Shown piece by piece: positions 11,719 through 47,067 of a stretch of DNA of 64,000 nucleotides. The DNA is taken from contig JAIQFO010000023.1 of NCBI GenBank assembly GCA_020073215.1, positions 1 through 64,000 on the forward strand, read 5' to 3'. The translations under genes were made by a program, and so were the position numbers. Position 1 is the stretch's first letter; each line of letters starts with the position of its first letter. Source of the stretch: Terriglobia bacterium. GTDB lineage: Bacteria > Acidobacteriota > Terriglobia > Terriglobales > Acidobacteriaceae. The notes under the pieces were generated by a model. It saw nothing but the letters and a program-made list of their open reading frames with translations. It made no database searches and was not told the DNA's origin.

Positions 11719-13629
11719 GTGGATCTCCCGCAGAAAATCCGTACCCTGCCCACGTCCCCCGGCGTCTACCTCTACAAAAATGCCGAAGGCGAAGTCATCT
11801 ACGTAGGCAAGGCCAAGAATCTGCGCGCGCGCGTCGGGTCCTACTTCCACGAAGGCCGCTGGGAGGACGCGAAAACGGGCACCCTGGTCCGCGAAGCCGT
11901 CGACGTCGACTACATAGTCGTAGCCAATAATAAAGAGGCGCTCGCCCTAGAAAATCACCTGATCAAGCAGAAGAAGCCGCGTTTCAACATCCTGCTGCGC
12001 GACGACAAGACCTATCCCTACGTGAAACTCACCCTGGCCGAGCGCTTCCCCCGCGTGTACGTGACCCGCCGCCTGCGCAAGGACGGCAGCGCCTACTACG
12101 GCCCCTACTTCCCTGCTAACCTCGCCTACCGTATCGTCGACCTGATTCATCGTCATTTCATGGTTCCGTCGTGCAAGGTGGATTTGACCCGCTATCATCC
12201 GCGTCCGTGTTTGCAGTACTACATCAAACGCTGCCTCGGTCCATGTGTAAAAGACCTGACCACGCCTGAGATTTACGGCGAAGCGGTGCGCGACGTGAAG
12301 CTCTTTCTCGAAGGCCGTCAAACCGACCTCGTCAAGTCTCTGCGTGAGCGCATGTCCGAAGCCGCCGAAGCGCAGGAGTTCGAGCGCGCCGCCCGCTATC
12401 GTGACCTGATCTCCACCGTCGAGCAGTTACAGGAGAAGCAGCGCATCGCCGCCGCCGAAGGCGACGACGCCGATGTTTTCGGCTACCACTACGAAAATCA
12501 AATGCTGGCCGTAAATCTGTTCCACATGCGCGGAGGAAAGGTCTTAGACCGCCGCGAATTTTTCTGGGAAGACCTCCCCGAGTTAACGACCCAGTCAGCC
12601 GAGCAAGACGGTGGAGAGACGGGCGCCCTCGCCCGTCCTGCCGACTCCTTCCACCCCGGCGAATTCTTCTCTGCTCTCGTCAAGCAGCTCTATCTTGCCC
12701 AGCCCTATGTCCCGCGCAATATCTACGTTCCTGTAGACTTCGATGATCTCGAAGAACTGGAAGAAGTTCTCGGCGAGCAACTGGCTGGAGAAGGCGGACG
12801 AGCGACGCGCGTCCACATCACCGTCCCCCAGCGCGGAGACAAGCGCGAACTGATCGATCTCGCCGGCACCAACGCCAAGCAGTCTTACGATCAGCGTTTC
12901 CGAGTCCTGAAGCCAAACGCGCGCGCCATTCAGGAAGCCCTCCAGGACGCGCTGGCTCTCCCCGAATTGCCCAAGCGCATCGAGTGCTTCGATATCAGCC
13001 ACATTCAGGGAGCGGAGACCGTAGCCTCTATGGTCGTCTGGGAAGACGGCAGGATGAAGAAATCCGACTACCGGAAGTTCATCATCAAGACCGTCCAACG
13101 CGTGGACGATTTCGCCTCCATGCGCGAGGTGGTCACGCGCCGCTACCAGCGCTTGTGTGAAGAAGGTAAGCAGGAAGGGAAAAAGTCCATGCCCAGCCTG
13201 GTGCTGATCGACGGAGGCCTGGGCCAGCTTCACGCCGCTGCCCAGGCGCTCGAGGCCCTCGAAATCATCAATCAGCCCCTGGCCGCAATCGCCAAGCGCG
13301 AAGAAATCATTTATGTCCACGGACAGGAAGACGACCCCGTTGTGCTCGACCATCATTCTCCCGTCCTGCATCTGGTGCAGATGATCCGCGACGAAGCTCA
13401 TCGCTTCGCCGTCACCTTCCATCGCAAGCGCCGCCAGATTCGCGACCGTGCCACCGAGCTACGAGAAATCCCCGGTGTAGGAGAATCCACCACCCGCCGC
13501 CTGCTCGAACATTTCGGCAGCCTGCAAGCCGTAAAGCAGGCCGACGTAGGTGCGCTCTCGGCAGTCGTAACCAAGTCGCAAGCGGAAGCCATCCTCGAAC
13601 ACTTCCGGAAGGCAGCCCTTAGCTCTTAG
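11719..13629 (+). CDS. uvrC: Excinuclease ABC subunit C
   Basis: UvrC makes both incisions in nucleotide excision repair. The 636-residue protein starts at GTG and has the GIY-YIG nuclease at the N-terminus (GVYLYK, IYVGKAKNLRARV), a UVR motif at about 200-240, the RNase-H-like second nuclease (IECFDISHIQGAETVAS, LVLIDGGLGQLHAA) and tandem HhH near the end (EIPGVGESTTRRLLEHFGS). A GACGGGCG palindrome is inserted in frame at 12618-12637, in the variable linker. The final residues LSS and the stop codon are part of a heptanucleotide array. Confidence 0.97.
   Translation: MDLPQKIRTLPTSPGVYLYKNAEGEVIYVGKAKNLRARVGSYFHEGRWEDAKTGTLVREAVDVDYIVVANNKEALALENHLIKQKKPRFNILLRDDKTYPYVKLTLAERFPRVYVTRRLRKDGSAYYGPYFPANLAYRIVDLIHRHFMVPSCKVDLTRYHPRPCLQYYIKRCLGPCVKDLTTPEIYGEAVRDVKLFLEGRQTDLVKSLRERMSEAAEAQEFERAARYRDLISTVEQLQEKQRIAAAEGDDADVFGYHYENQMLAVNLFHMRGGKVLDRREFFWEDLPELTTQSAEQDGGETGALARPADSFHPGEFFSALVKQLYLAQPYVPRNIYVPVDFDDLEELEEVLGEQLAGEGGRATRVHITVPQRGDKRELIDLAGTNAKQSYDQRFRVLKPNARAIQEALQDALALPELPKRIECFDISHIQGAETVASMVVWEDGRMKKSDYRKFIIKTVQRVDDFASMREVVTRRYQRLCEEGKQEGKKSMPSLVLIDGGLGQLHAAAQALEALEIINQPLAAIAKREEIIYVHGQEDDPVVLDHHSPVLHLVQMIRDEAHRFAVTFHRKRRQIRDRATELREIPGVGESTTRRLLEHFGSLQAVKQADVGALSAVVTKSQAEAILEHFRKAALSS
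12618..12637. repeat. In-frame REP-like palindrome inside uvrC
   Basis: GACGGGCG and CGCCCGTC pair around a 4-base loop. The DNA encodes GETGALARP, a sequence not typical of UvrC, in the linker between the UVR motif and the second nuclease domain. The core is shared with the palindromes in leuS, atpG and intergenic sites in this window. Confidence 0.7.
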
Positions 13630-13643
13630 CTGTTAGCTCTCAG
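13617..13643. repeat. Heptanucleotide array across the uvrC stop codon
   Basis: The bases read as seven-base units: CTTAGCT, CTTAGCT, GTTAGCT, CTCAGTC. The array starts within the last codons of uvrC, contains its TAG stop and continues into the gap. It resembles the arrays between the atp genes. Confidence 0.65.
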
Positions 13644-42172: not shown

Positions 42173-42577
42173 TTACTTTTCTTTCGCCACATTCAGCCGC
42201 GTTTCCGCGCGCTGCAGAGCGTCTTCCGCGCGGGTGTAATCGACCTGAGGATCGTTGCTCTTCAGGCGCTCCTCGGCCCGGTCTCTGGCTTTCTGCGCGC
42301 GCTCCACGTCAATTTCCTGTGGATGCTCGGCGGCTTCCGCTAGAATCGTCACCTTGTCGGGCAGCACTTCCGCAAAACCCCAGGCCACTGATAGCGTGTG
42401 CGTCTCTCCGCTCGCCCGGTAAGTAATCGCGCCCACACCAAGCTCCGTAATCAACGGAGCGTGACCGGGAAGAATCCCCAGATACCCGCTCGACCCTGGG
42501 ATTTGCGCTTCTTCCGCCGCTTCCTTCACCACCAGCTTGGCGGGAGTAACGATTTCGAGTTGGAAAGTATTATCCAC
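42173..42577 (-). CDS. atpC: ATP synthase F1 epsilon subunit
   Basis: The 134-residue subunit has the N-terminal beta-barrel typical of epsilon (FQLEIVTPAKLVVKEAAEEA, GSSGYLGILPGHAPLITELG) and the C-terminal helical hairpin (ERAQKARDRAEERL). It belongs to the central stalk and regulates rotation. The start is GTG, directly against a heptanucleotide array. It is the last gene of the atp cluster. Confidence 0.93.
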   Translation of the reverse strand: MDNTFQLEIVTPAKLVVKEAAEEAQIPGSSGYLGILPGHAPLITELGVGAITYRASGETHTLSVAWGFAEVLPDKVTILAEAAEHPQEIDVERAQKARDRAEERLKSNDPQVDYTRAEDALQRAETRLNVAKEK

Positions 42578-42578
42578 A

Positions 42579-42665
42579 GTTCTCAGTTCCCGGTTCTCAG
42601 TTCTCAGTCCGCATGCGCCGGCTACCGATGCTGGCTAAGTGCTAATTGCTAAGTGCTAACTGCTG
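42579..42665. repeat. Heptanucleotide arrays between atpD and atpC
   Basis: One side (42579-42609) repeats TCTCAGT-like units and the other (42633-42665) repeats GCTAAGT and GCTAATT units, with about 20 bp of other sequence between. The right array ends three bases before the atpD stop. The left array touches the atpC start and forms its leader. Confidence 0.7.
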
Positions 42666-42668
42666 ATC

Positions 42669-44120
<1,452 letters not shown>

Positions 44121-44129
44121 TCAAAACCA

Positions 44130-44235
44130 GCAATTAGCACTTAGCACTTAGCACTTAGCACTTAGCTTGCCGACTTAGCGCTCACTTCGAAATCTTTAGA
44201 TGTTCCAAATGCTAATTGCTAAGTGCTAAGTGCTG
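44130..44235. repeat. Inverted heptanucleotide arrays between atpG and atpD
   Basis: Four or more copies of TTAGCAC-type units (44130-44167) face the complementary AGTGCTA-type units (44209-44235). The arms can pair over about 25 bp, giving a long hairpin in the mRNA. The right array ends two bases before the atpG stop codon. Confidence 0.8.
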
Positions 44236-44237
44236 TT

Positions 44238-45356
44238 TTACTGCGCTGCCGCTCCGCTTACGATCTCGATAATTTCTTTCGTGATCTTGGCCTGGCGCGC
44301 GCGATTCATGACCAGCGTGAGCGAATCGATCATGTCGCTGGCATTGTTGGTGGCCGCATCCATGGCCGTCATGCGCGCGGCGTGCTCGGCGGCTACGGAC
44401 TCCAGCAGCGCATGAAAAATCTGGATGCCGAGATACTTCGGCAGAATACCCTCGAAAAGGCGCTCGGGCCGCTGCTCGTAGATGTAATCGACGGGCGACG
44501 CCCCGAATTTGGCGGCGGCCTCATCGACGGCGCTGGTGTCAATTGGACGCAGCCCGACGTGGGCCGTCTTCGCCGCTTCGATTCGTCGCTTGCGTTCTTC
44601 TTCCGAAGCCTCTTCCGCCATGCGGACATCGACTTCACCGATCTCCTTGATGGGCAGCAGGCGCTCGGCAACCAGGCGTTGCGCGATCACCGACTTGAAT
44701 TCGTTGAACAGTATGTAGACGCCGTCAATCTCGTTGCGGGCATAGCGGGCAACCACGCTCTCGCTGAGGGTGGCGGCGAAATTGTGTTCGACCTTGCCGA
44801 GAACTCCAACATATTCACCGACGATCTGCACGCGACCGGCGCGGGGCGGAGTCGCTTCTTCCCCGGCCGGGACGGGCGAGGCGCCCGTCTCGCCGCCAGC
44901 GGAGACGCTGGTTGTTCCGTCTGGCGAAGATGCCTTCTGCGACGCCATCGGGTAGCGGCGGCGCATGAAGTCGCGGCCCTTGCGTCCGATGCATTCGACG
45001 TCGATATTCTGTTCCGGTTTTGACTCGATGAATTTCGAAACCATCTTCAGGATATTGGTGTTGAACGCCCCCGCCAGGCCCTTGTCTCCGGTGACGACAA
45101 TAAGCAGGATCGTGTTTTCCGGGCGTTCGGCGAGCAGCGGATGACGCGGCTCTCCGGTAACCGGGTCGTAGATATCGGCGCGCGACACCAGCGACTTGAG
45201 AACGTTGGTGAGCATCTGCGAATAGGGCCGCGCGGCCAAGGCGCCCTCTTGGGCGCGGCGCAACTTCGCCGCCGAGACGGTCTTCATGGCCTTGGTGATC
45301 TGCCGCGTGTTGACCACGCTGCGGATACGGCGCCGGATATCGAGAACGTTTGCCAT
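44238..45356 (-). CDS. atpG: ATP synthase gamma subunit with in-frame repeat insertion
   Basis: The 372-residue central-stalk subunit is about 80 residues longer than usual. The ends are normal: MANVLDIRRRIRSVVNTRQI at the start and DMIDSLTLVMNRARQAKITK near the end. After IGRKGRDFMRRRYPMAS an extra stretch, ETGASPVPAGEEATPPRAGR, is encoded by a REP-like palindrome. A second longer segment, EASEEERKRRIEAAKTAHVG, precedes the C-terminal helix. The insertions lie in the globular part, away from the rotor coil. Confidence 0.95.
   Translation of the reverse strand: MANVLDIRRRIRSVVNTRQITKAMKTVSAAKLRRAQEGALAARPYSQMLTNVLKSLVSRADIYDPVTGEPRHPLLAERPENTILLIVVTGDKGLAGAFNTNILKMVSKFIESKPEQNIDVECIGRKGRDFMRRRYPMASQKASSPDGTTSVSAGGETGASPVPAGEEATPPRAGRVQIVGEYVGVLGKVEHNFAATLSESVVARYARNEIDGVYILFNEFKSVIAQRLVAERLLPIKEIGEVDVRMAEEASEEERKRRIEAAKTAHVGLRPIDTSAVDEAAAKFGASPVDYIYEQRPERLFEGILPKYLGIQIFHALLESVAAEHAARMTAMDAATNNASDMIDSLTLVMNRARQAKITKEIIEIVSGAAAQ
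44871..44911. repeat. In-frame REP-like element inside atpG
   Basis: GACGGGCGAGGCGCCCGTC is an almost perfect palindrome, followed by TCGCCGCCAGCGGAGACG, which mirrors the middle of the leuS element. The reading frame is kept. Confidence 0.75.
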
Positions 45357-45360
45357 AAAT

Positions 45361-45430
45361 CAGTCGCCAGTTGCCAGTAACCAGTTGCCAGTCTTGGAAT
45401 TTCCGGGTACGGGGTACTGAGTACTGGGTA

Positions 45431-45433
<3 letters not shown>
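45361..45433. repeat. Heptanucleotide arrays between atpA and atpG
   Basis: Five CAGTTGC-like units (45361-45395) are followed, after 10 bp, by GGTACGG, GGTACTG, AGTACTG and GGTACTA. The last unit contains the stop codon of atpA on the minus strand. Confidence 0.75.

Positions 45434-47064
<1,631 letters not shown>

Positions 47065-47067
<3 letters not shown>

Follow-up and report, generated by a model that had tools for sequence, protein, structure and literature searches.

The atpG-atpD gap and its predicted fold

The window, which is the whole stretch of 64,000 nt analyzed here, carries an atp cluster on its minus strand. The cluster reads from 48.9 kb to 42.2 kb, in the order of two ATP synthase b/b' subunits (Pfam ATP-synt_B), atpH, atpA, atpG, atpD and atpC. 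Judged from protein similarity, the host belongs to the Acidobacteriota (Terriglobales) and is not a cyanobacterium, because its nearest AtpG relatives come from Acidobacteriaceae/Terriglobia MAGs (identity up to 91%). The features at the junction of the gamma and beta genes, in the direction of transcription, are as follows:

44238-45356, minus strand: atpG, gamma subunit (gene call and relatives)
44207-44234, minus strand: 5' arm of the predicted atpG-atpD hairpin in the mRNA, AGCACTTAGCACTTAGCAATTAGCATTT, YAG type (TRF, lag-7 detection, inverted repeat and fold)
44167-44206, minus strand: loop between the arms, about 40 nt, with nothing in common with other copies (loop comparison)
44129-44166, minus strand: 3' arm of the predicted hairpin in the mRNA, GCTAAGTGCTAAGTGCTAAGTGCTAAGTGCTAATTGCT, CTR type (TRF, lag-7 detection, inverted repeat and fold)
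44115-44128, minus strand: GGTTTTGAGGTCTT, upstream of the atpD start, containing the Shine-Dalgarno-like core GAGG (sequence, relatives and fold)
42669-44114, minus strand: atpD, beta subunit (gene call)

The gap between the two genes (44115-44237, 123 nt) holds two inverted arrays of a 7-nt unit, detected both by TRF and by lag-7 self-matching. On the plus strand these are AGCAATTAGCACTTAGCACTTAGCACTTAGCACTTAGC at 44129-44166 (period 7, 5.4 copies) and AAATGCTAATTGCTAAGTGCTAAGTGCT at 44207-44234. Because both genes are encoded on the minus strand, the mRNA carries the reverse complement of these units, reading AAC, AGCACTTAGCACTTAGCAATTAGCATTT, a 40-nt loop, GCTAAGTGCTAAGTGCTAAGTGCTAAGTGCTAATTGCT, GGTTTTGAGGTCTT and then ATG. 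The two arms are complementary at 96% over 24 nt, 93% over 28 nt and 84% over 38 nt, confirming the original prediction of complementary heptamer arrays in this gap. The mRNA stem of about 25 bp proposed between the gamma and beta genes also found its counterpart: the gap alone, in mRNA sense, is predicted to fold at -48.3 kcal/mol (z -5.2), with a stem of ~27 bp before the loop region. A plus-strand fold of 201 nt gave z = -3.65. In the predicted hairpin the GAGG before the atpD start stays unpaired, and the GGTTTTGAGGTCTT region that contains it is nearly alike in several relatives (L068, L071, L082, L099).

No terminator was called in the atp gaps, and no promoter in that between atpG and atpD. 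An Rfam search returned generic hairpin models only, far under their cut-offs, and a known structured RNA family was rejected for want of any match at gathering score. An assembly artefact was rejected as well, because independent MAGs representing many species have the same paired-array architecture.

Each of the four atp gaps of 70-125 nt in this genome contains inverted paired arrays, with heptamers that differ among the gaps; the other three are:

46975-47066, minus strand: paired arrays in the atpH-atpA gap, AGCTGTC and AGCTGAC families, arms matched, z -3.5 (lag-7 detection, inverted repeat and fold)
45361-45432, minus strand: paired arrays in the atpA-atpG gap, an AGTACCC arm and an ACTGGCA arm, z -1.6 (lag-7 detection and fold)
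42577-42664, minus strand: paired arrays in the atpD-atpC gap, a TTAGCAC arm and an ACTGAGA arm, z +0.3 (lag-7 detection and fold)

In the atpA-atpG and atpD-atpC gaps each arm belongs to a different heptamer family, and the two have the unit in common only in part; the sense-RNA folds of these two gaps were no better than those of shuffled sequences. Two arrays occurred in 4/4 atp gaps of 60-150 nt, as compared with 17/300 codirectional gaps of that size in the genome sample (those four included). The atp operon is rich in paired arrays, though it is also where they were discovered. Two unrelated sites of this genome (C93:42634-42664, in the window, and C10:80251-80281) share an identical 32-nt stretch that includes the array GCTAAGTGCTAATTGCTAAGTGCTAACTGCT, hinting that arms may be dispersed as units.

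Period-7 arrays across the genome

We searched a sample of 2.18 Mb, taken in stretches and amounting to 39% of the 5.62-Mb genome, with detection thresholds set by eye and with genes called by an improvised hexamer model whose starts are approximate. The sample held 124 intergenic arrays in total, an absolute density biased slightly upward by two contigs (C88 and C100) picked for their TTAGCAC arrays. At the middle threshold, 78 period-7 arrays were intergenic and 7 were coding. Periods of 4, 5, 6, 9, 10, 11 and 13 gave 0-4 intergenic arrays each and period 8 gave 16, while the signal at period 14 is a harmonic of period 7. A Markov-2 simulation of intergenic DNA yielded no period-7 array where 15 were observed (first 715 kb), excluding a chance origin.

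In gaps of up to 300 nt the arrays lie nearer to gene edges than under random placement. Among those within 15 nt of an edge, 51 adjoin the 3' end of a gene and 29 the 5' end. This edge bias, along with the excess of intergenic over coding arrays, bears out the expectation that placement is non-random genome-wide. Array density was 0.41 per kb in codirectional gaps, 0.27 in convergent and 0.18 in divergent ones. The flanking genes are functionally mixed (etfB-etfA, tldD, plsX, mreC, scpB, nuoH, rpoN, alaS, and those for G6PD and squalene-hopene cyclase, among others). Where an array abuts a gene start, a Shine-Dalgarno-like motif was found in 0/14 cases, versus 34% elsewhere, in a small sample with approximate starts.

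Thirty-two gaps of the sample contain two neighboring arrays, and in every pair with both types assignable (26/26) a YAG-type array is on the left and a CTR-type array on the right. The YAG-type units include CAGTTCT, CAGTACC, TAGCACT, CAGCTGT and CAGGTCT, and an AT-rich family (ATTTGTA/CAAATTA) behaves in the same way. Single arrays follow this polarity too, YAG being nearer to the left gene at 19:7 and CTR nearer to the right gene at 18:4 (Fisher p = 1.8e-4). Complementarity between the arms of a pair averaged 18.1, versus 6.7 (sd 0.9) with partners permuted and a maximum of 11.1 in 10,000 permutations. Pattern searches of the whole genome with two heptamer families returned 43 and 63 matches, versus none for the reversed control, and matches close together on opposite strands were again in the order plus then minus. 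We saw no signal of a mirrored order of unit variants between the two arms, and rejected arm-by-arm templating on these grounds. A mobile element with a conserved interior was rejected in turn, the loops being unrelated save in two copies of one family.

Matched arms and unit turnover in related genomes

The set of related atp loci comprised 218 distinct gaps of 45-350 nt, drawn from MAG assemblies with one genome per species. A period-7 array occurs in 152/218 of them, and each of the other periods tested (4-11) in at most 10. The mean self-match of these gaps was 0.41 at lag 7 versus ~0.25 at lags not divisible by 7. Among gaps with at least two arrays (n = 96), the arm match was 11.8 within species, as opposed to 5.0 (sd 0.3) across species, and this within-species matching held for every atp gap taken separately. 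Units were at most one base apart in 67% of array pairs within one gap and in 27% between different gaps of one species; the figure was 13% when one gap was compared between species, and 8% in all remaining comparisons. Two sister rows, L077 and L079, have AGCTNCT-type and AGCACTT-type arms in the same gap, each internally matched.

The heptamer family has little phylogenetic signal on the AtpG tree (12 changes versus a shuffled mean of 14.7 at atpG-atpD, p = 0.03; p = 0.08-0.34 at the other atp gaps). On the same tree, the presence of any heptamer array does show phylogenetic signal for the atpG-atpD and atpA-atpG gaps. Related gaps with two arrays had a median fold z of -4.8 (88% below -2), compared with -1.0 (27% below -2) for gaps without arrays; DNA of either strand folds about equally well, and therefore none of these results is specific to RNA. 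In about a quarter of the related species the atpG-atpD gap is shorter than 45 nt, too short for paired arrays.

Two side observations concern these loci. The 292-nt atpG-atpD gap of L082 contains the whole heptamer hairpin, ~95 bp, in three tandem copies with small differences. L072, L075, L080, L073, L091, L109, L129 and others have different palindromes in their atp gaps, for example CCCAGCGCTTCAGCGCTGGG with CCCCGGAGGGGCG, or GGGCGCGGCTTCAGCCGCGCC, which look like separate repeat families of Acidobacteria.

Comparison with known repeat systems

Bacterial heptamer arrays have been described for decades and, to our knowledge, without a known function. The earlier descriptions mostly concern single units and direct repeats. 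In the literature that we searched, with most subscription papers outside its scope, there was no description of matched inverted heptamer pairs, nor of such heptamer arrays in Acidobacteriota.

The cyanobacterial STRRs are 7-bp intergenic repeats; for some, located between hupS and hupL and close to hoxW, hairpins were described and a part in translational coupling or the stability of transcripts was suggested (PMC2670836). The arrays reported here resemble them in being tandem 7-nt units in intergenic DNA, dispersed in many copies per genome (124 intergenic arrays in 2.18 Mb). In Nostoc PCC 7120, the hupS-asr0689 repeats (CAGTTGT-type, then CTGAC-type downstream; listed as 'no hairpin') follow the same YAG-then-CTR grammar and order as the Acidobacteriota pairs (PMC2408588). 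However, STRR reports treat each repeat singly, whereas the arrays reported here belong to many unit families and commonly form matched inverted pairs, and the host belongs to a different phylum (Acidobacteriota, Terriglobales). In a small cyanobacterial sample made up of plasmid DNA of Anabaena variabilis (NC_007410, 250 kb) and Nostoc azollae (NC_014249, 50 kb), we detected 9 arrays and no pair; a DNA similarity search in plasmids gave short, chance-level matches only.

A second comparison is with the TAACTGA direct repeats of Beggiatoaceae, Cyanobacteria and Bacteroidetes, which share the heptamer period, the intergenic position, the scarcity of ribosome-binding sites (most sets have none) and the mixed functions of neighboring genes (PMC4679880). 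These repeats show 7-nt indels between strains, and often end directly before a start codon in the CTG orientation, a placement shared by the arrays here (PMC4679880). Nevertheless, they consist of one unit in direct repeats, with a single inverted set in 170 and no predicted structure (PMC4679880), while the units described here are many (TTAGCAC, CAGTTCT, CAGTACC and others) and often stand in inverted matched pairs.

REPs are palindromes of conserved sequence, 20-40 bp long and mostly with a GTAG or CGTC tag (PMC3733652). The likeness to REP/BIME elements lies in short intergenic palindromes present in many copies, favoring gene 3' ends and transcribed gaps and forming generic mRNA hairpins, here predicted ones; the difference is that the present elements are free to vary in sequence, have heptamer arrays as arms, and differ in units and loops between copies. 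MITEs likewise have inverted repeats around a short interior in intergenic DNA, but by loop comparison the copies here have no interior in common, save two copies of one family. Finally, the GC-rich stem followed by a T run that marks an intrinsic terminator was called in none of the atp gaps.

A proposed sequence-flexible hairpin element and its alternatives

These data show that, across a whole order, heptamer arrays often occur as inverted matched pairs of fixed polarity, with arms that stay matched despite the change of unit between species. We favor, with a confidence that is about evenly balanced, the reading that the atpG-atpD feature belongs, as a single copy, to a REP-like class of intergenic hairpin elements that occur genome-wide, are independent of the neighboring genes and are built from STRR-type heptamers. 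Such an element has two inverted 7-nt arrays set close to the genes on either side, with YAGxyNY at the left and the reverse complement of that unit at the right. In gaps within an operon, the arms would fold as an mRNA hairpin, which at atpG-atpD would leave the next Shine-Dalgarno-like sequence free. Like REP/BIME elements, the hairpin may impede 3'-to-5' decay in a generic way and space translation units apart; we infer both folding in vivo and these effects on decay or translation. The arrays would lengthen and shorten by 7-nt slippage and whole pairs seem to be exchanged, so that part of the pattern may be a mutational product tolerated in gaps. The hairpin is probably a generic mRNA structure, partly molded by slippage and turnover.

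Matched arms, fixed polarity and the joint change of both arms are as expected from selection for pairing or from copying of one arm to the other. The unmirrored unit order and the mismatched families in two atp gaps count against strict selection for a perfect stem, and the unrelated loops against a mobile element with a body, and it is therefore the REP-like, sequence-flexible element that we prefer. Counted against this preference itself are the unmirrored order, the mismatched arms of atpA-atpG and atpD-atpC, neither with a significant sense fold, the occurrence of arrays in divergent gaps and as singles, and the very short atpG-atpD gap in about a quarter of the relatives.

An alternative that we take seriously, short of preferring it, is that the arrays are mutational products without function, with 7-nt slippage making the arrays, template switching or recombination making the inverted copies, and gaps tolerating both. 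Coding regions would purge such arrays because 7 nt shifts the frame, in keeping with their near absence from coding DNA. A turnover of heptamer families so fast that little phylogenetic signal remains, the other palindromes or empty gaps at the same position in some relatives, and the tandem triplication in L082 all fit this view; polymerase slippage with a 7-nt footprint was proposed by Mrazek et al. 2007, as cited in PMC4679880. Yet the fixed YAG/CTR polarity, the position at gene edges and the matched arms around unrelated loops demand more than slippage, and recent template switching should leave the unit order mirrored, which was not found.

It is improbable, in our view, that an RNA- or DNA-binding protein reads the 7-nt-spaced units at gene ends, with pairing being secondary, along the lines of the protein-binding role that MacGregor suggested for TAACTGA repeats (PMC4679880). 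The polarity relative to gene edges, obeyed even by single arrays (Fisher p = 1.8e-4), and the lack of Shine-Dalgarno-like motifs at array-abutted genes (0/14 versus 34%), matching that of ribosome-binding sites at most TAACTGA sets, speak for it; against it, this one genome has many heptamer families, and its relatives have others, with only the YAG/CTR core in common.

The original prediction had linked the hairpin to the 1:3 ratio of gamma to beta, a role that the location between the two genes and the strong predicted fold (z -5.2) would suit. We now consider this very unlikely, because the hairpins are general: a like architecture occurs in the atpH-atpA, atpA-atpG and atpD-atpC gaps, at etfB-etfA, whose products are needed at 1:1, and at unrelated, ordinary genes, and also in gaps between convergent or divergent genes, where there is no intercistronic mRNA; many relatives, moreover, have no array at this site. 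That the atpG-atpD gap holds a transcription terminator or attenuator is hardly credible, since the TTTT after the stem is a T run of just 4 nt, none of the atp gaps had a terminator-like call, and a stop here would reduce beta, the subunit required in excess.

A further claim, which we put forward as doubtful, is that the arrays form a distinct class of Acidobacteriota element in which the 7-nt step, the YAG/CTR polarity at gene edges and the pairing of the arms are conserved and the sequence is not, the two arms being replaced jointly across short evolutionary distances. If true, it would imply either a dedicated copying of heptamers from arm to arm or a selection for pairing that is independent of sequence. 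With paired arrays, the puzzle of the single repeats becomes a set of testable questions (why the period is 7, how the arms stay matched, and whether the mRNA is affected by the hairpin), for which the orthologous atp loci assembled here are ready material.

Other arrays in the window and the phylum

A single heptamer array, AGCCCTTAGCTCTTAGCTGTTAGCT, at 13614-13638 of the window overlaps the 3' end of a gene at 11719-13629 (UvrC-like by sequence), and therefore provides its final codons and TAG stop. A single-unit search across the phylum found AACTGAG arrays in only 4/149 genomes, because units vary from species to species. Stretches sampled from other families of the phylum also contain period-7 arrays, some in inverted pairs. 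In genomes G067, G107 and G185 (loci L243, L244, L247 and L252) several of the arrays stand in inverted pairs, and the units include GGGTTCC, AAAGGCA and AAACCCG.
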